Part shown: positions 22,806 through 34,918 of the stretch, one piece after another
How the letters are laid out: every line of letters starts with the position of its first letter
Numbering within the stretch: position 1 is the first letter of the stretch
Source: Alphaproteobacteria bacterium
Lineage (GTDB): Bacteria > Pseudomonadota > Alphaproteobacteria > UBA8366 > Aestuariispiraceae
NCBI GenBank assembly: GCA_030065235.1
Contig: JASJDC010000003.1
Coordinates: 186,001-250,000 of the forward strand
Length of the DNA: 64,000 nt
Direction of reading: 5' to 3'
Program-made: the position numbers and the translations under genes
The notes under the pieces: generated by a model
The model's database searches: none
Told to the model about the DNA's origin: nothing
The model's input: the letters and a program-made list of their open reading frames with translations, nothing else

Positions 22806-23780
22806 TTATCCGGGGGCGGCCGGTGGCGCGCCATAGCGCAGCCCCGGCGCGTCCAGAGCCTCAAGCCCTTCCGTCTCCTTCAGCAGCGCCAGGATTTGCG
22901 GCAGGATCGTCGCGATAGGGACGGCGGTGTTCACCGGGCCGCGATTCGTGCGCACGCCGGAAGCGGAATTCACGCCGATCGCCGCCAACCCGCCTCCTTG
23001 CAGTCGGATCGCCAGCGGCGCGCCGCTATCGCCGTTCTGAATCGTACAGCCATGCATCAGCAACGCACGATCTGACGTCGCGCCGGTGACGCCGCAACCC
23101 GACGTGAGAGAAATCGCATGCGCTCGGTCGCGCGGATAGCCAGCCAAGACCATGGCGTCGGGGGTGTCCCTCAGCCGCGAGACCCAGGCGTCGTTCACCG
23201 CAAACAGGCCCAAATAGCCCGCCTGGAGGCCGAGCGGCTCTTTCAGCACAATCAGCGCCCAGTCGTGGGCGTAATTATCTGGATGCGTCCATTTCGCGCC
23301 ATTGAAGTCGGGTGACGCGACAAGCCGCTCCGCCTTGGAAAAAGCCACGAATTCGCCGCGCTGATAGCCCGCGACGAAATAGACATTGTCGGGCCGGGCC
23401 CAACGTTGGGTGCGCCGGTCGTAGAAACAGTGCGCCGCCGTTACAGCCAGCCGCTCGCCGATCAGGGCGCCGGTGCAATGAGACCTTTGGCTGACGCCGG
23501 GCACGTTCACCCTTCCAATCGCGCTCCAGGGATAGCGGCTGGCGTCGGCGATCGTCCGATCCTGGGTCGAGCCCGACAGCGGTGCGACCGTTTCGTCAGG
23601 GCCGGTCTGAGCCATACCTGATGTAGCGGTCATGCTAGCAAGAGCGGTCGCCAAAGCGAACGATTGAAATGAATGGCGGCTGCGCGGTGTGGTCAAAGCC
23701 AAAATTCCGAATTTGTGGAAAGAGCGACGAACAATCTTCTCGGCTTCTCGATTACTCTGCGGCGAGGGGGTTGCGCGCAC
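22806..23780 (-). CDS. Secreted trypsin-like serine protease (S1 family)
   Basis: The chymotrypsin-fold triad is clear: H in VTAAHCFYD, D in YAHDWALIVL and S in CTIQNGDSGAPLA. An export signal is likely in the stretch FALATALASMTATSGMAQ. The frame opens with GTG at 23780, overlapping the end of paaX by 29 bases. A TTG at 23702 would give a more normal signal peptide, so the start is uncertain. The length, about 300 residues, fits secreted alphaproteobacterial S1 proteases. The substrate is unknown. Its position after paaX is probably not functional. Confidence 0.85.
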   Translation of the reverse strand: MRATPSPQSNREAEKIVRRSFHKFGILALTTPRSRHSFQSFALATALASMTATSGMAQTGPDETVAPLSGSTQDRTIADASRYPWSAIGRVNVPGVSQRSHCTGALIGERLAVTAAHCFYDRRTQRWARPDNVYFVAGYQRGEFVAFSKAERLVASPDFNGAKWTHPDNYAHDWALIVLKEPLGLQAGYLGLFAVNDAWVSRLRDTPDAMVLAGYPRDRAHAISLTSGCGVTGATSDRALLMHGCTIQNGDSGAPLAIRLQGGGLAAIGVNSASGVRTNRGPVNTAVPIATILPQILALLKETEGLEALDAPGLRYGAPPAAPG

Positions 23781-24705
23781 TCCTGTCAGGAATGCCGGCT
23801 AAACCGCCGAAGCGCCGCGCATAGAACGGCGCCAGAGCGCGGGGGGCGCTCTCCGTCTCGCTTGCGGCGAGGCGTTCGGCGACATGTGTCTGCGCGGCGT
23901 TTGTCAGGGCGCGATAAAGCGCCTCATAGGCCGCATGCGCTTCGGCGCCGCGCCAGTCCGTCGGCGCCAGGGCCTCCGGCAGTCCGGGATCTTTCAAGAC
24001 AATACGGCGATAGGCGTGGACCAGTAGGGTTCTGAGTTGAAAGGCGGCCTGAGGCGCGCCGGCGTAGCGGGTCGGCGCGGCGCAGAACGGATCGAACGCC
24101 GTCAGGAATCGGTCGTAGAGCGCGGCGATCTCCGCCATCGGCCAGGCCTCCGCGACGATCCGATGCAGCGCCTCAGGGTGGGTTCCGGCTTCCGGCGCCG
24201 CGGAGAGGATCGCGACCCGCCCATCCAGCCCCAATGCGTCGATCGAGGCCAGCGCTTGCGCGCGGTCCGGCGCCGGATGGGCCAAGAGGCCGGGCGATAG
24301 CGCGGCGAATCCTTGCCAGGCGAGTTCCCTGCGCAGCGCCTCGCGATCCTCGGGGTCTATCCCGCCTTCGCTCAAGACAAGCATCCAGTCAGGCGCCGTG
24401 CGATCCGGCGTCGAGGCGTAGATCCGCGCCTCCGCCGCCATGAATTGCCGCGCGGCGTCCGTGGTCAGAATGTAGCGGCTGCGGCGCCCTTCCTTGCGGA
24501 TCGTGAACATCGCCTCTTGCGTCAACCGGTACATCGAGGTCCTGACCACGCGCTCGCCAAATCCCATTGGATCGAGCAGATCAATCATCGCGCCGAGCAA
24601 GAAGTCGCCGCCGAGCGGGGCGATACTGTCGCCGCAGACCGTGACGATCAGCGACTTAGCCCGAATGTCGAGCCTTTCCGCCAGAGTCTGAAGCGCGTGA
24701 TCCAT
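23752..24705 (-). CDS. paaX: Phenylacetate-responsive transcriptional repressor PaaX
   Basis: 317 residues matching PaaX. It opens with a winged helix-turn-helix (RAKSLIVTVCGDSIAPLGGDFLLGAMIDLL, then ERVVRTSMYRLTQEAMFTIRKEGRRSRYILT), and the PaaX C-terminal regions follow. The family represses paa genes and is released by phenylacetyl-CoA. It is the last gene of the leftward paaG-paaI-paaK-paaX unit, 18 bases after paaK, so it would be autoregulated. The GATAC-N27-GTATC repeats in both paa promoter regions are its likely sites. Confidence 0.92.
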   Translation of the reverse strand: MDHALQTLAERLDIRAKSLIVTVCGDSIAPLGGDFLLGAMIDLLDPMGFGERVVRTSMYRLTQEAMFTIRKEGRRSRYILTTDAARQFMAAEARIYASTPDRTAPDWMLVLSEGGIDPEDREALRRELAWQGFAALSPGLLAHPAPDRAQALASIDALGLDGRVAILSAAPEAGTHPEALHRIVAEAWPMAEIAALYDRFLTAFDPFCAAPTRYAGAPQAAFQLRTLLVHAYRRIVLKDPGLPEALAPTDWRGAEAHAAYEALYRALTNAAQTHVAERLAASETESAPRALAPFYARRFGGLAGIPDRSARNPLAAE

Positions 24706-24723: not shown

Positions 24724-26031
24724 CTAAAGGGTCCGGTTGTCGATCACGCGGCGGGCCTTGCCGAGGCTGCGCTCGATCGCGCCGGGTTCCTGGACCTGAA
24801 CCGACGCTGTGACTCCGATCAAATCCTTAATCCGTTCGGCAAGGTCCCGGCCGGCGATCACCCGCGCCGCATCCGCAACCGACCCGTCCCGCGCCTCGAC
24901 TCGCACCAGCATCGAGTCCAGCGGGCCCTCGCGGAACACCTCGATCTGGTAGTGCGGCGCCAGTGTTGGCTCTTTCAGGATCAATTCCTCGATCTGCGAG
25001 GGGAAGACATTGACGCCGCGGATGATCAGCATGTCGTCGCTGCGGCCCGTCACCTTCTCCATTCGCCGCATGCTGCGGGCAGTGCCAGGCAGCAGCCGGG
25101 TCAGGTCGCGCGTCCGGTAGCGGACCATCGGCAAGGCTTCCTTCGCCAGGGTGGTGAAGACAAGCTCGCCGAACGCGCCGTCCGGCAAGACGGCCCCGGT
25201 TTCGGGATCGATGATCTCCGGATAGAACCAGTCCTCCCAGATATGAAGGCCGTCCTTGCTTTCGATACATTCCATACTGACGCCGGGCCCGACAATTTCG
25301 CTCAAGCCGTAAATGTCGACCGCCTGCATGCCGGTGCGGTCTTCTATCTCGCCCCGCATCGCGTCGGTCCAGGGCTCCGCGCCGAATATCCCGACCTCGA
25401 GCGAACATTCCTCCCGGCTCAGGCCCTGCCGATCCATCTCATCGGCGAGGGCCAGCATATAGCTGGGCGTGACCATGATGATGGTCGGCCGGAAATCCCG
25501 GATCAGTTGCACCTGTTTCTCGGTCTGGCCGCCGGACATCGGGATCACCGTGGCGCCCAGCTTCTCGGCCCCGTAATGCGCGCCTAGCCCGCCAGTGAAC
25601 AGACCATACCCGTAGCTGACATGAACAAGGTCGTCAGGCGTCCCGCCGGCCGCGCGCAGCGACCGCGCCATCGCATTGGACCATACATCAATGTCCTTTT
25701 GCGTGTAGGCGACAACGGTGGGTTTGCCAGTCGTGCCGCTGCTGGCGTGCAGCCGGACCACATCATGCACCGGCGTCGCGATCATATCGAACGGATAATT
25801 CTGGCGCAGATCGTCCTTAGTCGTGAAGGGGAACCTCGCCAAGTCAGACAGGTCGGTCAGATCGTCGGGGTGCACGCCCGCCGCATTGAATTTGGCGCGA
25901 TAGTGCGGCACGTTCTGATAGGCCGCGCTCAGCGTTTGTTTCAGCCGAGCGAGCTGCAGGGCGGCGATCTCATCCCGGCTGGCGATTTCGATTGGGTCGA
26001 GACTGTCGCGCGGGGCTTTTGCGAGTGTCAT
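24724..26031 (-). CDS. paaK: Phenylacetate-CoA ligase
   Basis: Makes phenylacetyl-CoA from phenylacetate, ATP and CoA; this product is also the inducer released to PaaX. ATG 26031 gives 435 residues, the family length. ASSGTTGKPTVVAYTQKD is the phosphate-binding loop, DIYGLSEIVGPGV the adenine-site block, and YRTRDLTR and TGRSDDMLIIRGVNVFPSQIE the hinge and C-terminal domain signatures. It lies 25 bases after paaI. Confidence 0.96.
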   Translation of the reverse strand: MTLAKAPRDSLDPIEIASRDEIAALQLARLKQTLSAAYQNVPHYRAKFNAAGVHPDDLTDLSDLARFPFTTKDDLRQNYPFDMIATPVHDVVRLHASSGTTGKPTVVAYTQKDIDVWSNAMARSLRAAGGTPDDLVHVSYGYGLFTGGLGAHYGAEKLGATVIPMSGGQTEKQVQLIRDFRPTIIMVTPSYMLALADEMDRQGLSREECSLEVGIFGAEPWTDAMRGEIEDRTGMQAVDIYGLSEIVGPGVSMECIESKDGLHIWEDWFYPEIIDPETGAVLPDGAFGELVFTTLAKEALPMVRYRTRDLTRLLPGTARSMRRMEKVTGRSDDMLIIRGVNVFPSQIEELILKEPTLAPHYQIEVFREGPLDSMLVRVEARDGSVADAARVIAGRDLAERIKDLIGVTASVQVQEPGAIERSLGKARRVIDNRTL

Positions 26032-26056
26032 GGCGTCGCTCTGCTTCTGGGTCCGC

Positions 26057-26515
26057 TCAGGCTTGCGGATAGGCGGGGTCGATCTGGTCGCCAATTGTGC
26101 GCGAACGGCCCCGGAACAGCGCGATCCGCACGCCATCCTGATTGACCACCGTCACGTCATAGACGCCGCTGCGCCCGCGCGCGTAGGTCTCTTCGCAGGT
26201 CGCGGTCAATCGGTCGCCGAGCCGTCCCGGATTGACGAAATCGACATCGCAGCTTTGTGCGACCGTCAATCGGTTCCCGCTGTTGCAGGCGGCGGCGAAG
26301 GCGCTATCGGCGAGCGTGAAGGCGAGACCGCCATGCAAAATGCCGAAGCCATTCACCATATCCTCGCGAACGGTCATGGTCATCACCGCGCGGCCCGGCG
26401 CGACCTCGGCCAACACAATTCCCAGCATGGCGCTGGCCTTGTCATCGGCGAACATCTTGGCCGCAGCCGCTTCGGCCGCCTGCTGCGGCGTGTGTCTGGG
26501 TTCGGACGCCGCCAT
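26057..26515 (-). CDS. paaI: PaaI-type hotdog-fold thioesterase
   Basis: Hydrolyses stalled ring-hydroxylated or epoxidised phenylacetyl-CoA derivatives to rescue CoA. ATG 26515 gives 152 residues. NGFGILHGGLAFTLADSAFA is the hotdog active-site segment with the family HGG and conserved aspartate. It starts four bases after the paaG stop and belongs to the same unit. An upstream in-frame extension of 35 residues lies inside paaG and is rejected. Confidence 0.93.
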   Translation of the reverse strand: MAASEPRHTPQQAAEAAAAKMFADDKASAMLGIVLAEVAPGRAVMTMTVREDMVNGFGILHGGLAFTLADSAFAAACNSGNRLTVAQSCDVDFVNPGRLGDRLTATCEETYARGRSGVYDVTVVNQDGVRIALFRGRSRTIGDQIDPAYPQA

Positions 26516-26519
26516 CGGC

Positions 26520-27326
26520 TCAGGCGCCCGTAAACCGGGCTGCGCGTTTCTCGATGAAGGCCTGCACGCCCTCCCGATAATCCGCCGTACGACCGGCGAC
26601 CCGTTGCAGGTCGCGTTCAAGGTCGAGTTGATCGGCGAAATCGTTGGTCATGCTGGCGTTCATCGCCTGTTTGATCAGCGCCAAGCCCTTGGTCGGCTGG
26701 GTCGCCAGATGCGCCGCCAATTTGCGCGCCTCCGGCATCAGCTCCGCATCCGGCAGGCGTTTCCAGATCAGGCCCCATTCTTCAGCTTGCTCCGACGAGA
26801 TTTTGTCGCCCAGCATCGCCATGCCCAGCGCGCGCTGCCAGCCGACCAGCCGGGGCAGGGTCCAGGTGCCGCCGCTGTCCGGGATCAGACCGATCTTGCA
26901 AAAGGCCTGGATGAAGCTGGCGCTCTCGCCGGCCAGCACCAAATCGCAGGCCAGGGCGATATTGCATCCGGCCCCGGCCGCAACGCCGTTCACTGCTGCG
27001 ATCACCGGTTTCTCCATCGCTCGAAGAGACCGCACCAGGGGGTTGTAGTGCGCATCGAGCGTTTCTCCCAAGTCCGGCGCGTCGTCGGCCCCGCTCATTA
27101 CGCGGTCGCTCAAATCTTGGCCGGCGCAAAAACCGCGCCCGGCGCCGGTTAGGGTCACCGCCCGGACGGTGTCGTCGCCGGCGATCTGTTTAAGCGCCGC
27201 GCGCAGCTCGCGATGCATCATCGTGTTGAAACTGTTGAGCTTATCCGGTCGGTTGAGGGTGATTTCCGCCACGCCGGCCTCAACCGTCACAGTAATTGTC
27301 TCGAACGCGTCGCCGTCGCTCGCCAT
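26520..27326 (-). CDS. paaG: 1,2-epoxyphenylacetyl-CoA isomerase
   Basis: Crotonase-family enzyme that isomerises the ring epoxide to oxepin-CoA. The 268 residues contain AGRGFCAGQDLSDR and NGVAAGAGCNIALACDLVLA (oxyanion hole), followed by FIQAFCKIGLIPDSGGTWTLPRLVG, close to PaaG/PaaB of known clusters. PaaF, the other crotonase of the pathway, lacks the AGQDL-type block, so I prefer PaaG. It is the first gene of the leftward unit, and a TTGTCA-N17-TATCAC promoter lies 43-71 bases upstream. Confidence 0.92.
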   Translation of the reverse strand: MASDGDAFETITVTVEAGVAEITLNRPDKLNSFNTMMHRELRAALKQIAGDDTVRAVTLTGAGRGFCAGQDLSDRVMSGADDAPDLGETLDAHYNPLVRSLRAMEKPVIAAVNGVAAGAGCNIALACDLVLAGESASFIQAFCKIGLIPDSGGTWTLPRLVGWQRALGMAMLGDKISSEQAEEWGLIWKRLPDAELMPEARKLAAHLATQPTKGLALIKQAMNASMTNDFADQLDLERDLQRVAGRTADYREGVQAFIEKRAARFTGA

Positions 27327-27368
27327 GCTTTCTTCCCCGATCCGCTGCGCTGGTCTGTTCTTCTAAAA

Positions 27369-27397
27369 GTGATACAAGATTGGACGATCTTTGACAA
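27369..27397 (-). promoter_or_regulatory. Promoter of the paaG-paaI-paaK-paaX unit
   Basis: On the minus strand TTGTCA (27397-27392), a 17-base spacer and TATCAC (27374-27369) form a good sigma-70-type promoter pointing at paaG. The -10 overlaps the left arm of the putative PaaX operator, so a bound repressor would block RNA polymerase. A TTGACA on the plus strand at 27391-27396 may serve paaN, though its -10 is not obvious. Confidence 0.6.
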
Positions 27398-27407
27398 TTT
27401 TGGTATC
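27371..27407. promoter_or_regulatory. Candidate PaaX operator, paaG/paaN divergent region
   Basis: GATAC (27371-27375) and GTATC (27403-27407) are inverted copies with starts 32 bases apart, about three helix turns. The left arm extends to TGATACAAGA, identical to the left arm of a second site upstream of paaA that has exactly the same spacing. Recurrence in just the two paa promoter regions is the main evidence. I do not claim a match to a published PaaX consensus. Confidence 0.6.
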
Positions 27408-27460
27408 GCTTTGCTGGAAGTCCGCCGCCAGTGCGGACGATCCAGCGAGAGGAAATCCCC

Positions 27461-29170
27461 ATGACCGCGTCCGCCGCCGAGACCCTGTTCGAAACCCATA
27501 AGGCGCAGCTCGACGGGGCCCTGTCGGCGATTCGGTCGCGCGGCTATTGGTCCGCCTTCCCGGAAAGCCCGAGCAAGAGGGTCTATGGCGAGACGGCGGC
27601 GGCGGATGGGTTGGCCGCCTTTGAGGCGATGAAGGGCGCGCCCTTCGAGCTGTCAGGCCATCCGGGCGCCGGGATGCGGGTAGGCGGTGAGGTTTCGCCA
27701 TATGGACCCGCGCTCGGCGTTTCTTATCCTGCGGCGACGGTCGATGCAGTCTTGGCGGCGGCAACGGCGGCGTTGCCGGCCTGGCGCGACGCGGGGGTGA
27801 AAGCGCGGACCGGCGTCTGCCTGGAAATCCTTAAGCGCATCAACGCGCAGAGCTTCACTTTCGCCCACACGGTGATGCACACGACCGGCCAGAGCTTCGT
27901 CATGGCCTTTCAAGCGGGCGGTCCGCACGCTCAGGATCGTGGGCTTGAAGCGATCGCCTACGCCTATGACGCGATGGCCGCGACGCCAGAGCATGTGCGC
28001 TGGGAGAAGCCGCAGGGCAAGAACCCGCCGCTGGTCATCGACAAGTATTTCAAGACGGTCCCGCGCGGCGTCGCCGCCGTGATCGGCGTCTCGACCTTCC
28101 CGACCTGGAACGGTTTTCCCGGCCTGTTCGCCAGTCTGGTCACCGGCAATCCGGTGGTGGTGAAGCCGCATCCGGCGGCCATTCTGCCGCTCGCCCTGAC
28201 CGTGCGGATCGCGCGCGGCGTTCTGGCCGAAGCCGGCTTCGACCCAAATCTGGTCACGCTTCTGGTCGATGACGCCGACGACCCGATCGCCAAAGATCTG
28301 TGCACCCGGCCCGAGGTGAGAATCGTCGATTTCACCGGCGGCGGCGCCTTCGGGAATTGGCTGGAAGAAAACTGCCCGCAGGCGCAAGTCTATACCGAGA
28401 AATCCGGCGTCAATGCGGTGGTGATCGACGATTTCGCCGATCTGAAAGGCATGGCGCGCAATCTCAGCTACACATTCTCGCTCTATAGCGGCCAGATGTG
28501 TACGACGCCGCAGAATGTCTTTATTCCGAAATCAGGGATCAAGACCGCCGACGGCGTCATGAGTTTCGACGCGGTGGCGGCGGCCCTGGCGGCCTCGGTG
28601 GACAAGTTCCTGTCGGACCCGGACCGCGCCTTCGCCGTGCTGGGGGCGATCCAATCCAAGGCGACGCTGGATCGGGTGGAGAAGGCTGCCGCGCTTGGCC
28701 GGACAGTGCGCCGGAGCGCCGCCCTGACCCATCCCGATTTTCCCGACGCGGTCGTACGCACGCCCGCGATGATCGCGCTCGACGCCGAGGCCGACCGCGA
28801 GACCTACGGCGCCGAGTGTTTTGGGCCCGTCACCTTTCTCATCGCGACCGAGGATACAGGGGACAGTCTCGCCCGGTTGCGGGAGACGGTTGCGGAAGGC
28901 GGCGCCATCACCGCCGCGCTCTATGCCGACGACGCAGCCGTGATCGAGCGCGCGCGCGCCGTGTGTGAAGAGGTTGGCGTCGCGCTCAGCGTCAATTTGA
29001 CGGGCGGCTTGTTCGTCAATCAGTCGGCGGCCTTTAGCGACTTCCATGCGACCGGCGCGAATCCCGCGGCCAATGCGGCGCTGACCGACGCCGCCTTCGT
29101 CGCCAACCGGTTCCGGGTGATCGAGACCCGCATTCCGGTCGACGAAGAACCCGCGGAGACGGCGGCGTGA
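27461..29170 (+). CDS. paaN: PaaN-type ring-opened semialdehyde dehydrogenase
   Basis: Oxidises the ring-cleaved CoA semialdehyde of the phenylacetate pathway. ATG 27461 follows GAGAGGAAAT and gives 569 residues. The catalytic cysteine lies in [14 protein letters not shown], with [15 protein letters not shown] and the aldehyde dehydrogenase NAD-binding region before it. There is no C-terminal MaoC hydratase domain as in PaaZ, so a separate hydratase must open the oxepin ring; none is in the window. The last codon region overlaps the paaY start (GTGA). Confidence 0.9.
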
Positions 29171-29796
29171 GTCCGGCGGACCCGCGTCTGGGACCTCAGG
29201 TCTATGAGATCGACGGGCTGGTCCCGGTCATCCACCCGACAGCCTTCGTACATCCGACGGCGGTGTTGATCGGCGACGCCATTGTCGGGCCGAACTGCTA
29301 TGTCGGACCCTGCGCCAGCATGCGCGGCGATTTCGGGCGGCTGATCCTGGAAGAGGGCGCCAACCTGCAGGACAATTGCACGATGCACGGTTTTCCTGGG
29401 ACCGACACGGTGGTCGAGATCGACGGCCATATCGGCCATGGCGCGATCCTGCATGGCTGCCGGATCGGCCGAAACGCGCTGGTCGGGATGAATGCGGTGA
29501 TCATGGACGGCGCGGTGATCGGGCCGGACTGCATCGTCGCCGCCATGGCCTTTGTCCGCGCCGGCCAGAGTTTCGAGCCGCGCAGCCTCATCGCCGGCCT
29601 GCCGGCCAAAGTGATGCGCGAAGTCAGCGACGAGGAACTGGCCTGGAAACAGGAAGGCACGCAAGCCTACCAGACCCTCGCCCGCCGATCCCGCGCCACG
29701 CTGCGCCCCGCGACGTCGCTTACGGAACCGGAACCCGACCGTCCCCGCATCACCAACCAAGACGTGAAGCCGCTTTACCAGACCAAGGAAGGGTAG
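29167..29796 (+). CDS. paaY: PaaY hexapeptide-repeat thioesterase
   Basis: 209 residues of a left-handed beta helix in the gamma-carbonic anhydrase superfamily. Repeats such as [26 protein letters not shown] and [22 protein letters not shown] are visible, with metal-site histidines in MHGFPG, HIGHG and ILHG. In phenylacetate pathways PaaY hydrolyses a toxic ring-hydroxylated CoA ester. The start is GTG 29167, overlapping the paaN stop. The C-terminal 40 residues are polar and less conserved. It closes the paaN-paaY unit. Confidence 0.9.
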
Positions 29797-29898: not shown

Positions 29899-30840
29899 TT
29901 ACCCTTTTGGCGGCGTGACCCTCTGCGCCGATCGGATTAGAACGCCAGAGGATATCAGTCCCGCCGCCACGACCAAGGCCATACCGACCCAAGTCTCCAC
30001 GGTCGGAATTTCGGTGAAGAGGATCAGGCCCCATAGCGCCGCAAACACGACATAGCTGTAATCTACGGTCGCCATCATTTGCGGGGCGCCGGTCTGATAG
30101 GCGCGCGCGACTCCAAGAAAGAACCCAGCCGACAAGACGCCCAAGAATCCCATCAAGGCCCAGTCCGTGAGATCCATGGAGCGCCAATGCTCAAACAGGA
30201 ATGGGTACTCGGATCGCAATGCGTCGCCTACATCAATCAATAGGAATGCAACCGATCCAATCACCCCGGTTAAAAGGAACGCGACATGCAGGTTCAGGGC
30301 TAAGGACACAGGATTTTCGGAGCGACATTTGTTTCGTGTTAGCACCATCGCCAGTGAATAGGTGAAGGCCGCCATGAGCGGCAGGAAGATCGCCATGGAA
30401 AAACCGTCTGCGCCCGGTCTCAGTATCACAGCGACGCCGACGAACCCGAGCGCCACGCCAAGCCACTGTGTTCGCGTCACCCGTTCACCCAAGAACAGCG
30501 CTGACAAGACCGTTGTCCAGATAGGATTTGTATAGACGGCTGTTGCAGCGATGGCTAAGTCGAGCAAGGGAAGCGACGCGTAAAAGGCGAGCCAGGTGAA
30601 GATTAGAAGCGCGCTTCTTAAGACAATCCAGTACGAAACGCGAAGCAGCGGGGCGTCCTTGGTGGCGTATAGAAGGGCAGCCAGGCAGGCGGCTGCAAAG
30701 ACAGAGCGCGCTGCAAATACTTGCCAAATTGTAAGGTCGCTGCTGACGAGCTTTACCATCGCGTCGGCAAAAGACATCGCAAGAACCGACAGGGTCAATG
30801 TCACGGCGGCGCTCGCGTTCCGACCAAGTAGAGGCGTCAT
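29899..30840 (-). CDS. EamA/DMT-family transporter
   Basis: 313 residues with about ten membrane helices arranged as two EamA repeats (first half to about 140, second from about 150). TNPIWTTVLSALFLGERVTRTQWLGVALGFVGV is the typical end of the first repeat. A GAGAGG ribosome binding site precedes ATG 30840. The family exports small metabolites. By eye its base composition is lower in GC and its codon use differs from flanking paa genes, and it faces the other way, so it was probably inserted between paaY and paaA. A phenylacetate link is possible but unsupported. Confidence 0.88.
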   Translation of the reverse strand: MTPLLGRNASAAVTLTLSVLAMSFADAMVKLVSSDLTIWQVFAARSVFAAACLAALLYATKDAPLLRVSYWIVLRSALLIFTWLAFYASLPLLDLAIAATAVYTNPIWTTVLSALFLGERVTRTQWLGVALGFVGVAVILRPGADGFSMAIFLPLMAAFTYSLAMVLTRNKCRSENPVSLALNLHVAFLLTGVIGSVAFLLIDVGDALRSEYPFLFEHWRSMDLTDWALMGFLGVLSAGFFLGVARAYQTGAPQMMATVDYSYVVFAALWGLILFTEIPTVETWVGMALVVAAGLISSGVLIRSAQRVTPPKG

Positions 30841-30994
30841 ACAACCTCTCTCACGATCCTTACGGCTGGTCAGCGTGGGGAACTTGGTAAGGCGGTGCGT
30901 CCAAGCTTTTGCACGCGGGTCGGATCATCCGATCGAAAAAAGGCCTGCTCAAGCGGTTCAAATGCGGGGAAGACTAATCCGGGCGCGCAAATAT

Positions 30995-31031
30995 GATACA
31001 AGAATCGCATTGAAATGCGAAAAACTGTATC
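30995..31031. promoter_or_regulatory. Candidate PaaX operator upstream of paaA
   Basis: GATAC (30995-30999) and GTATC (31027-31031) repeat the spacing of the paaG/paaN site exactly, and TGATACAAGA (30994-31003) is identical in both. The right arm sits between the -35 and -10 of the paaA promoter. The full arms here, TGATACA and TGTATCA, are perfect complements. Confidence 0.62.
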
Positions 31032-31038
31032 ATATCAT
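31010..31038 (+). promoter_or_regulatory. paaA promoter
   Basis: TTGAAA (31010-31015), a 17-base spacer and TATCAT (31033-31038) form a good sigma-70-type promoter. The paaA start is 96 bases after the -10. It overlaps the candidate operator. Confidence 0.6.
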
Positions 31039-31133
31039 GCGGAACAAAGAGGCGAAGAGCCCGAGTTTGGGGACGGAATGGCGTGCCGCGCGCGGCCGGT
31101 GGGCTGCGCTGCGGTGGCTTTTGGAGATTCGGC

Positions 31134-32132
31134 ATGAGCGATGCGACGTTGGACAGTAAGGGGGGCGCTGGTCCGGCGGTCGCGGACGATCCGAAACGGC
31201 GGGCGGCCTTCGATGCGCGGGTGGCGGCGGAAGGCAAGGTCGAGCCGCGTGACTGGATGCCGGAGCAATATCGCAAGACGCTGATCCGGCAAATCTCGCA
31301 GCACGCGCACTCGGAATATGTCGGCATGCTGCCGGAAGGCAATTGGGTGACCCGCGCGCCGACGCTGCGGCGCAAGGCGGTGCTGCTGGCCAAGATTCAG
31401 GATGAGGCGGGGCACGCCCTCTACCTCTATGGCGCGGCGGAGACGATGGGCGTCAGCCGCGCGGAGATGCTGGACGCGCTGCATGAGGGCAAGGCGAAAT
31501 ATTCCTCGATCTTCAACTACCCGACCCTGACCTGGGCCGATGTCGCGGCGATCGGCTGGCTGGTCGATGGCGCGGCGATCGTCAATCAAGTGGCGCTGCA
31601 GCGTTGTTCCTACGGGCCCTACGCTCGGGCCATGGTGCGGATCTGCAAGGAAGAGAGTTTCCACCAGCGCCAGGGCTATGAAGCGATGATGGCGCTGGCC
31701 CAGGGGTCGCCGGACCAGAAGAAGATGGCGCAGGACTCGCTCAACCGCTGGTGGTGGCCTTCGCTGATGATGTTCGGCCCCAGCGACCGCGACAGCCCGC
31801 ACTCGGCCCAGAATATGGCCTGGAAAATCAAGCGCGAGTCGAACGACGATCTGCGCCAGCGCTTTGTCGATATGACCGTGCCGCAGGCGGATTATCTTGG
31901 GCTGACTATGCCGGACCCGGATCTAAAGTGGAACGAAGAACGCGGCCATTACGATTTCGGCGAAATCGATTGGGACGAGTTCTGGCGCGTCGTCAAAGGG
32001 AACGGCGTCTGCAACCGGGAACGGCTCCAGGCCCGCCGCGACGCGCATGACAAGGGCGCCTGGGTCCGCGAGGCGGCCGTGGCGCATGCGGAGAAGCGCG
32101 CTGCACGCAGCTTGGCGCAAGCGGCGGAATAG
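31134..32132 (+). CDS. paaA: Phenylacetyl-CoA epoxidase catalytic subunit PaaA
   Basis: Di-iron monooxygenase subunit that forms the 1,2-epoxide of phenylacetyl-CoA. ATG 31134 has TTGGAGA upstream and gives 332 residues. Iron ligand motifs are the ExxH pairs in [12 protein letters not shown] and [29 protein letters not shown] and [16 protein letters not shown] are family blocks. It heads paaABCDE and carries the inserted exporter on its upstream side. Confidence 0.97.
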
Positions 32133-32489: not shown

Positions 32490-33248
32490 ATGAACCAGGA
32501 CCAGCATGTCGATTATCTCCTCCGGCTCGGTGACAACGCGCTGATCCTGGGGCATCGTCTGAGCGAATGGTGCGGCCATGCGCCGATCCTGGAAGAGGAT
32601 ATCGCGTTGACCAATGTCGCGCTGGACCTGATCGGCCAGGCGCGCATGTTGTTGACCCAAGCCGGCGCGGTTGAGGGCAAGGGTCGGGACGAAGATGCAC
32701 TGGCCTTCGGCCGCGATGTTTTGGATTGGCGCAATGTGCTGCTGGTCGAGCAGCCCAACGGCGATTTCGCCGATACGATCGCGCGGCAATTCCTATTCGA
32801 TATCTGGAACCATCAGGTCTTTTCCACGCTGCTCGGCTCGACCGATGCGGAACTGGCCGCCATCGCCGCCAAGGCGGTGAAGGAAATCGCTTATCACAAG
32901 CGGCATTCCAGCGAATGGCTGATCCGGCTGGGCGACGGCACGGAGGAGAGCCGGGCGCGCATGATCCGCGCATTGGATGTGCATTGGGGCTTCGTCGAGG
33001 AGTTGTTTACGCCCGACGCCGTCGATCAGGCTGCGTTTGAGGCGGGAATCGGTCCCGATCTGGCGGCGCTGCGCCCGGAATGGGACGCGGCGGTCGCGGC
33101 GGTGCTGGACGAGGCGGGGCTCGAGCGGCCGGAGGTCGGCTGGGCGGTCCATGGCGGCAAGACGGACGGCCATCATAGCGAGCATCTGGGCTTCATCCTG
33201 GCGGAGCTGCAATTCATGCAGCGCGCCTATCCGGGCCTGGCCTGGTAG
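32490..33248 (+). CDS. paaC: Phenylacetyl-CoA epoxidase structural subunit PaaC
   Basis: 252 residues of ferritin-like helices, related to PaaA but serving as its structural partner. LRLGDNALILGHRLSEWCGHAPILEEDIAL opens the protein, ARQFLFDIWNHQVF and KEIAYHKRHSSEWLIRLGDGTEES follow, all PaaC blocks. It lies 14 bases before paaD. Confidence 0.96.
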   Translation: MNQDQHVDYLLRLGDNALILGHRLSEWCGHAPILEEDIALTNVALDLIGQARMLLTQAGAVEGKGRDEDALAFGRDVLDWRNVLLVEQPNGDFADTIARQFLFDIWNHQVFSTLLGSTDAELAAIAAKAVKEIAYHKRHSSEWLIRLGDGTEESRARMIRALDVHWGFVEELFTPDAVDQAAFEAGIGPDLAALRPEWDAAVAAVLDEAGLERPEVGWAVHGGKTDGHHSEHLGFILAELQFMQRAYPGLAW

Positions 33249-33262
33249 TCACGGGTTGCGCC

Positions 33263-33805
33263 ATGGGACAGACGGTTCACAACCTGGGATCGATCGAGCC
33301 GCCAAACGGCGCGGCAGCGGAAGCGGCGCGGGTCCGCCGGCTGTTACAGGATGTGACCGATCCGGAGATCCCGGTCCTGACCATTGGCGACCTGGGACTG
33401 ATCCGCGACATCGCGGTTCAGGGGGATTTCGTCACGGTGACGATCACCCCGACCTATAGCGGCTGTCCGGCGATGCTGACCATCGAGATTGATATCCGCG
33501 ACCGGCTGTTGCGTGCGGGCTTCACCGAGGTGCGGGTCGAGACGGTTCTGGCCCCGGCCTGGACCACCGATTGGCTGAGCGAAGACGGCCGCCGCAAGCT
33601 GCGGGACTATGGAATCGCGCCGCCGGCGAAAGGCGCGGATGCAGCAGGAAAAGCCGCTCTGTTTGGCGAGGGTCCGAAGGTCGCCTGTCCGCTTTGCGGC
33701 GCGGCCGACACCGAAAGGGTCAGCGAGTTCGGCTCGACCGCTTGCAAGGCGCTTTATCGCTGCCGGTCCTGCGCCGAGATGTTCGATTATTTCAAGTGTA
33801 TCTGA
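33263..33805 (+). CDS. paaD: PaaD, MIP18/DUF59 assembly protein of the epoxidase
   Basis: 180 residues. The N-terminal half is a DUF59 domain (VTDPEIPVLTIGDLGLIRDI and PTYSGCPAM with the conserved cysteine). The C-terminus carries a zinc-ribbon-like set of cysteines (CPLCGAADTERVSEFGST, then CRSC). PaaD is needed to mature the epoxidase metal centres. It lies 24 bases before paaE. Confidence 0.94.
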   Translation: MGQTVHNLGSIEPPNGAAAEAARVRRLLQDVTDPEIPVLTIGDLGLIRDIAVQGDFVTVTITPTYSGCPAMLTIEIDIRDRLLRAGFTEVRVETVLAPAWTTDWLSEDGRRKLRDYGIAPPAKGADAAGKAALFGEGPKVACPLCGAADTERVSEFGSTACKALYRCRSCAEMFDYFKCI

Positions 33806-33829
33806 CCGGTCTGGTGGAAGAAGCGGAGT

Positions 33830-34918
33830 ATGGTGAAATTTCACGACCTGACCGTCGCCGATATCCGGGCCGAGACCGATGAGAGCGTGTCGATCGCTTT
33901 CGCCGTGCCGGAGGCTCTGAAAGACGCCTACTCCTTCACGCCCGGGCAATTTCTGACTCTGCGCGCCGAGGTCGGTGGCGAGGATATAAGGCGCTCCTAT
34001 TCGATCTGCAGCGGGGTGAACGACAACGAGCTGCGCGTCGCGGTGAAGCGCGTCGGCGGCGGCCGTTTTTCAGGCTTCGCCAACAGCGCCGTCGCAGCCG
34101 GCGATGTCTTGCAGGTCATGACGCCGGACGGTCGTTTCACCCTGGCGCCCGATCCCGCGCTCAATGGGCGTCACGTTGTGGCCTTCGCGGCGGGCAGCGG
34201 AATCACGCCGATTATGTCGATCGTGAAGTCTCTGCTGGAGGATGAGCCCGAGACGACGGTGACCCTGTTCTACGGCAACCGCACGGTCGGCGGCGTGATC
34301 TTCCGCGACGCGCTGGAGGCGCTGAAAGACCGCTTCACAAAGCGCTTCACCCTGGTGCATCTGCTCAGCGGCGAGCGCCAGGAAGCGCCGTTGCTGAACG
34401 GCAGGCTGGATGGCGAGAAGGCGGCGACGCTGCTGCGGGTGCTTGTCCCGGAAGAGGCGGACGCCTACCTGATCTGCGGTCCCGGCACGATGGTCGAAGA
34501 TATCCGCGCCGCCCTGCGCGCCCAAGGCGTGGCGGAAGGGAAAATCCGTTTCGAACTGTTCACGCCCGCGGAGGGCGTCGCGTTGGCGTCTGTCGCGCCG
34601 TCCGACGCCGGTGCGGTCCCGGCCGAGGCCGGCGAGACCGCCAGGGTCGCCGTCCTGATTGACGGCGTGCGCACCGAGTTCGACCTGCCGTTCAACGGTC
34701 CCTGCGTCTTGGAAGGCGCCGAGGCGGCGGGAGCCGATGCGCCCTTTTCCTGCAAGGGCGGGGTCTGCGCCACCTGCCGGGCGCGCGTTCTTCAGGGCGC
34801 GGTCGAGATGGCGCAGAACTATGCGTTGTTGGAGGATGAGGTGGCGCAGGGCTTCGTGCTCACCTGCCAGAGCCGCCCGACCAGCAAGACCCTCGTCTTG
34901 GATTACGACGCCGTCTGA
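33830..34918 (+). CDS. paaE: Phenylacetyl-CoA epoxidase reductase PaaE
   Basis: Feeds electrons from NADPH to PaaA. The 362 residues hold an FAD domain (RRSYSICSG), an NAD(P) domain (AAGSGITPIMSIVKSLL, then YLICGPGTMVEDI) and a C-terminal plant-type [2Fe-2S] ferredoxin domain with cysteines in SCKGGVCATCRAR and LTCQSRP. It ends the paaABCDE unit. Its last 16 bases overlap the end of the convergent hydrolase gene. Confidence 0.96.
   Translation: MVKFHDLTVADIRAETDESVSIAFAVPEALKDAYSFTPGQFLTLRAEVGGEDIRRSYSICSGVNDNELRVAVKRVGGGRFSGFANSAVAAGDVLQVMTPDGRFTLAPDPALNGRHVVAFAAGSGITPIMSIVKSLLEDEPETTVTLFYGNRTVGGVIFRDALEALKDRFTKRFTLVHLLSGERQEAPLLNGRLDGEKAATLLRVLVPEEADAYLICGPGTMVEDIRAALRAQGVAEGKIRFELFTPAEGVALASVAPSDAGAVPAEAGETARVAVLIDGVRTEFDLPFNGPCVLEGAEAAGADAPFSCKGGVCATCRARVLQGAVEMAQNYALLEDEVAQGFVLTCQSRPTSKTLVLDYDAV

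Follow-up and report, generated by a model that had tools for sequence, protein, structure and literature searches.

What controls the phenylacetate (paa) genes in this 64-kb stretch of DNA (the window), and is the inverted repeat between the divergent genes paaG and paaN part of the answer? The element, TGATACAAGATTGGACGATCTTTGACAATTTTGGTATCG, occupies 39 bp at 27370-27408 in the paaG/paaN intergenic region and has the form TGATAC-N27-GTATCG. Sequence comparison indicates, with high confidence, that it is an operator of the phenylacetate repressor PaaX, as an earlier note on this DNA had proposed: its motif, spacing and place fit the E. coli site, one PaaX lies in the adjoining gene row, and the site recurs in the family. 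PaaX operators of this kind are an ordinary example of a switch already known from E. coli. The features of the region are as follows.

23752-24705, minus strand: paaX, a repressor of 317 aa, the last recognised paa gene of the row paaG-paaI-paaK-paaX
24724-26136, minus strand: paaK, phenylacetate-CoA ligase (family match from residue 50; the true start is probably downstream of the ORF start)
26057-26620, minus strand: open reading frame with the paaI thioesterase (match from residue 64; start codon uncertain)
26520-27326, minus strand: paaG, isomerase
27369-27397, minus strand: putative paaG promoter TTGTCA-N17-TATCAC (-35 at 27397-27392, -10 at 27374-27369; 9 of 12 matches)
27370-27408, no strand: predicted PaaX operator O(G/N), TGATAC-N27-GTATCG (arms 27370-27375 and 27403-27408)
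27461-29170, plus strand: paaN (TIGR02288)
29167-29796, plus strand: paaY (TIGR02287, 316.7 bits, just below the cut-off of 319.6)
29899-30840, minus strand: EamA transporter gene, between paaY and paaA, its start about 150 bases from O(A)
30994-31032, no strand: predicted PaaX operator O(A), a perfect TGATAC-N27-GTATCA upstream of paaA (arms 30994-30999 and 31027-31032)
31010-31038, plus strand: putative paaA promoter TTGAAA-N17-TATCAT (-35 at 31010-31015, -10 at 31033-31038; 10 of 12 matches)
31134-32132, plus strand: paaA
32163-32450, plus strand: paaB
32490-34918, plus strand: paaC, paaD and paaE

The arms that had been described are where they were said to be, GATAC at 27371-27375 and GTATC at 27403-27407, 32 bases apart from start to start with a 27-base spacer. 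The match is one base longer on each side (27370-27408) than the earlier coordinates (27371-27407). The left arm, TGATACAAGA, is repeated exactly at 30994-31003 before paaA, where a GTATC arm follows at equal spacing. This twin, O(A), lies at 30994-31032, about 100 bases ahead of the paaA start codon (31134). Among the four arms of the two sites there is a single mismatch: the right arm of O(G/N) ends on its outer side in G and not A.

Both sites coincide with likely promoters of the genes they would control. The minus-strand paaG promoter is present as previously read, its -10 overlapping the left arm of O(G/N); all of it but base 27369 falls within the operator, and reading the left arm outward gives the -10. 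At paaA the -35 is inside O(A) and the -10 adjoins the right arm. We infer both promoters from their hexamers and spacing. A stricter promoter scan, which accepts a -10 only if its last base is T, reported the paaA promoter and omitted the paaG one. PaaX on either operator would be expected to block RNA polymerase. O(A) also holds a minus-strand promoter match (TTCGCA-N17-TATCAT, 31021-30993), and the EamA transporter gene might be under the same repressor as paaA.

The proposed regulator is encoded in the row that the site at the paaG promoter would control, as the note had it, and adjacency suggests that paaG-I-K-X forms one transcript. The protein is recognised by the three Pfam families PaaX (PF07848, 58.5 bits against a gathering cut-off of 24.8), PaaX_M (PF20803, 33.5 against 24) and PaaX_C (PF08223, 81.7 against 22), and is the sole PaaX_C protein that we found in the genome. 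Its score against the NCBIfam equivalog TIGR02277 is 224.8 bits, under the cut-off of 264.55, a threshold that 24 of 38 matching genomes pass in our class sample (387 genomes searched). Its identity thus rests on the Pfam families, on gene context and on the match of residues 5-302 to PDB 8A39, named repressor of phenylacetic acid degradation, which we take to be the E. coli protein. Just beyond paaX lies a minus-strand open reading frame of 324 aa (22806-23780) that matches no NCBIfam family at E 1e-10.

How closely does this arrangement resemble the known systems? A 2022 review (PMC9493321) gives TGATTC-N27-GAATCA as the E. coli site and phenylacetyl-CoA as the inducer. The genome of E. coli K-12 carries TGATTC-N27-GAATCG before paaA and an imperfect site with a gap of 28 before paaZ. 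The present sites share with those of E. coli the inverted 6-bp arms, the 27-base spacer, the position upstream of paaA, a PaaX-family repressor and the association with paa genes. Both O(G/N) and O(A) have TGATWC arms around N27 and lie on promoters of paa catabolic genes. They differ from the E. coli operators in one base per arm, TGATAC here and TGATTC there. Unlike in E. coli, one site stands in a paaG/paaN divergent region, paaX belongs to the row paaG-I-K-X, and two sites were found genome-wide. For Pseudomonas sp. Y2 (del Peso-Santos 2006), PMC9493321 describes a PaaX site similar to that of E. coli, so that this likeness is by description and not letter by letter.

The note had named the same pattern at many unrelated places as grounds for giving up the idea. 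A scan of the whole genome (4,179,190 bases in 19 contigs) revealed no such spread and no convincing third site. GATAC-N27-GTATC occurs at two places in 4.18 Mb, the paa promoters of O(G/N) and O(A). With the gap allowed to vary from 22 to 32 there are 10 places (5 for the reversed control pattern), so the count at gap 27 is modest in itself: eight places over the other ten gaps make about one per gap unsurprising. The telling point is that both gap-27 places sit in paa promoters. Four places genome-wide carry the longer TGATAC-N27-GTATCA with one mismatch or none, two of them being O(G/N) and O(A); the reversed control has one.

Two scoring schemes agree. A half-site matrix made from 35 sites outside the window finds nothing above 8 bits in the 64-kb window other than the two predicted operators (43.2 and 33.3 bits). 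Profile R1, which uses sequence only and was trained on 19 gap-27 sites, all from other genomes, picks out the same two and nothing else genome-wide at E <= 10, on both strands each (E 3.4e-4 and 8.0e-3), with all 65 first-look candidates scored. Nothing above 8 bits by the half-site matrix was found at the two other one-mismatch places (C2:427 and C14:70985) or at six of the eight other GATAC places (L001-L004, L129, L130; the other two are on C18), and we treated the places so scored as chance. The expectation that paaH and paaJ would carry the site was not borne out: within 1.5 kb on either side of three paaJ-like and four paaH-like genes (L117-L123), the best paaJ-like one being on contig C6 with 70% identity to E. 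coli PaaJ, the half-site matrix had no match. The phenylacetate regulon of this organism would thus be narrowed to two promoters.

To see how far the site extends beyond this genome, we collected up to 20 kb around PaaX from 80 genomes, namely every one with a PaaX match in our family (8), class (35 more) and phylum (37 more) samples. With the window and E. coli K-12 these make 82 loci, in which paa genes were mapped by tblastn; all counts over the 82 include the window, and related genomes among them are not independent. An open search for inverted 5-mers and 6-mers at any gap from 6 to 45, with no motif assumed, was made in 420 upstream regions, after an initial search of whole loci had been swamped by conserved codons. 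GATAC at gap 27 came top among 5-mer arms (13 loci, against a mean of 0.28 at other gaps) and TGATAC at gap 27 among 6-mer arms (8 loci, mean 0.21). Allowing for the E. coli letter, 33 of the 82 loci have TGATWC at gap 26-28 with one mismatch or none; 40 permuted arms gave a mean of 1.1 and a maximum of 4. The gaps peak at 27 (20 loci), with 28 in 10 loci and 26 in 6. The long 27-base spacing of E. coli PaaX is thus found in another class of the same phylum.

Recurrence among close relatives concerns the same promoters. Across 14 family genomes, with 150 first-look candidates scored in each of six of them, R1 finds at least 20 places at E <= 10; at least 16 of these, in at least nine genomes, are ahead of paaA or paaG, five of the 16 being training sites that match by construction. 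Sites at these two genes are thereby present in at least eight of the 13 family genomes other than this one, and among the R1 matches listed the 14 best (E <= 0.16) all stand before paaA or paaG. Of the remaining four places, those in G004 (E 0.29) and G001 (E 1.1) had no neighbouring paa gene, and G003 has the other two (E 7.9 and 9.4). A weak site precedes the paaG homologue of another genome, G009 (L139:4002-4048, G009:C1; R1 E 1.6), where neither protein nor family search found a PaaX; for this weak site the regulator may be lost, missed or elsewhere. In 43 genomes of the order, exact TGATAC-N27-GTATCA occurs at 11 places in eight genomes, and the reversed control at none. Seven of the 11 are at paa promoters. 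For the other four (L019, L022, L126, L128), tblastn over the stretch examined detected no paa gene, which means that an exact match does not by itself prove a paa site; with the half-site matrix those in L126 and L128 score 19.1 and 25.9.

No TGATWC pair at gap 26-28 was found in the regions examined of 49 of the 82 loci: 31 of these have Ser or Asn in the PaaX recognition helix, 11 more show no paaA, paaG, paaN or paaZ gene, and seven have neither feature. In these sequences, then, presence of the TGATWC site follows the recognition helix. Where a bulky residue (F/Y/L/Q/H) precedes the conserved RL of PaaX, 32 of 50 loci have the site; where Ser or Asn does, one of 32. With a paaA, paaG, paaN or paaZ gene in view the figures become 25/32 and 1/28, the lone Ser/Asn case (L115, gap 28, upstream of paaJ, one mismatch) looking weak. 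Under the same restriction, clustering by PaaX identity leaves the site in 13 of 15 non-Ser clusters against 1 of 17 Ser clusters at 60%, and in 8 of 10 against 1 of 12 at 50%. This is an association along one branch and not repeated covariation, because all non-Ser proteins except one fall into a single clade (51/52, support 0.83).

If the Ser-class proteins do not read TGATWC, they may read something else at the same distance. The paaA promoters of seven Ser-class loci, part of those later counted, have TGTTAC-type arms about 27 apart, and from them we chose the motif TGTNAC. At gap 27 with at most one mismatch it occurs in 15 of the 30 Ser-class loci and 1 of the 52 non-Ser loci. In the Ser class any other gap from 15 to 40 gives at most two loci, as do 60 permuted arms at gap 27. 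Pairs of the form TGTNAC-N27-GTNACA stand before paaA in L045, L052, L070, L072, L086-L092, L095, L107, L111 and L114. Three of these 15 sites are without mismatch, and nine of the 15 loci come from one tight group, with 7 of 19 clusters represented at 70% identity. The narrower TGTKAC, which was tried first, had given 5/30 Ser-class and 2/52 non-Ser loci at gap 26-28. The second arm type is best regarded as a lead.

We consider it fairly likely, from these counts, that the 27-base gap is the lasting signature of how PaaX recognises DNA and that the recognition helix determines the arm. Proteins of a clade in which the residue before the conserved Arg-Leu is mostly bulky (F/Y/L/Q) would read TGATWC, and those with Ser at this position (for example xxVRTAMSRL) would read TGTNAC at an equal gap in paaA promoters. 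The change of arm may have been a single event with many passenger changes, because the non-Ser class is one clade. If true, this would be a natural switch of PaaX specificity at constant geometry, in which the letters change and the geometry is kept. The Ser-class operator may be new: we found no account of it in the literature searched, which leaves out most subscription journals, and among the matches listed for the main text of a study of pathway distribution (PMC13186573) the terms 'binding site', 'operator' and 'promoter' do not appear. Two arm types with one spacing also offer a concrete way into how PaaX reads DNA, the 2022 review stating that no PaaX-operator complex had a known structure (PMC9493321).

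Could another regulator of the same genes, such as a TetR-type PaaR or a global regulator, bind these boxes while PaaX acts elsewhere? Other proteobacteria are known to use PaaR-type regulation (PMC2770484), and some genomes are reported to have PaaX and PaaR together (PMC13186573). The operators of Burkholderia cenocepacia PaaR are likewise repressor sites, at the paaA, paaZ and paaH promoters, but each is a contiguous 15-bp inverted repeat around ACCGACCGGTCGGT. A box of that kind with at most three mismatches is missing from both paa promoter regions (27327-27460 and 30841-31133), and we rejected a PaaR operator here; elsewhere in the window the same search gives 15 matches, of which 27157-27170 lies inside paaG. 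For any regulator other than PaaX, moreover, it would be odd that the TGATWC site tracks the PaaX recognition helix as it does (25/32 bulky against 1/28 Ser/Asn), and we hold this explanation to be very improbable. We give still less credit to the idea that the arms are in part -10 hexamers (TATCAY read outward) that happen to lie 27 apart at two promoters. Promoter selection can indeed keep one arm: at paaG the -10 TATCAC comes from GTATCA read outward, and at paaA a TATCAT match adjoins the right arm. Yet chance leaves unexplained why there is a second arm, why the gap hardly varies, and why 33 of 82 loci carry the pair when permuted arms reach four at most. A PaaX operator is favoured by several findings together: the sequence as such, how rarely it occurs in the genome, its return at the same promoters of relatives, its near-total confinement to one PaaX clade, and the E. 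coli spacing.

Compatible with a PaaX operator are two ways of occupying it, by one dimer spanning both arms or by two cooperating dimers on one face, each arm being a complete box with its own dimer. A symmetrised profile of 21 gap-27 sites, O(G/N) and O(A) included, shows besides TGATAC mostly A or G at -3, A or T at -2, a purine at 0, A at 7 and 8, A or T at 10 and T at 11. Positions 13-20, in the middle of the spacer, carry at most 0.18 bit each and are not conserved over these sites. Each half thus looks like a box of about 15 bases (-3 to 12) with a passive mid-spacer. From centre to centre the arms are separated by 33 bp, roughly three B-DNA turns at 10.5 bp per turn, and therefore both boxes face the same side. 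A half profile of this length is long for a single winged helix and speaks for two dimers, whereas the nearly fixed gap (26-28) is what one rigid dimer would need; we regard two dimers as possible, though somewhat doubtful.

By analogy with E. coli, PaaX would bind its operators here, repress, and be released by phenylacetyl-CoA. In the circuit that we propose, it would bind two inverted TGATAC boxes with centres 33 bp apart on one helix face and cover the promoter between and under them. Occupancy of O(G/N) would shut both paaG-I-K-X and the divergent paaN-Y, and the perfect copy O(A) would shut paaA-E. Once PaaK activates phenylacetate, the resulting phenylacetyl-CoA would bind PaaX and release it. 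The circuit would also limit its own repressor, because paaX sits in the row that PaaX would repress. O(A) has in addition an inner palindrome, CGCATT-GA-AATGCG at 31006-31019, whose centre is at most half a base from that of the operator.
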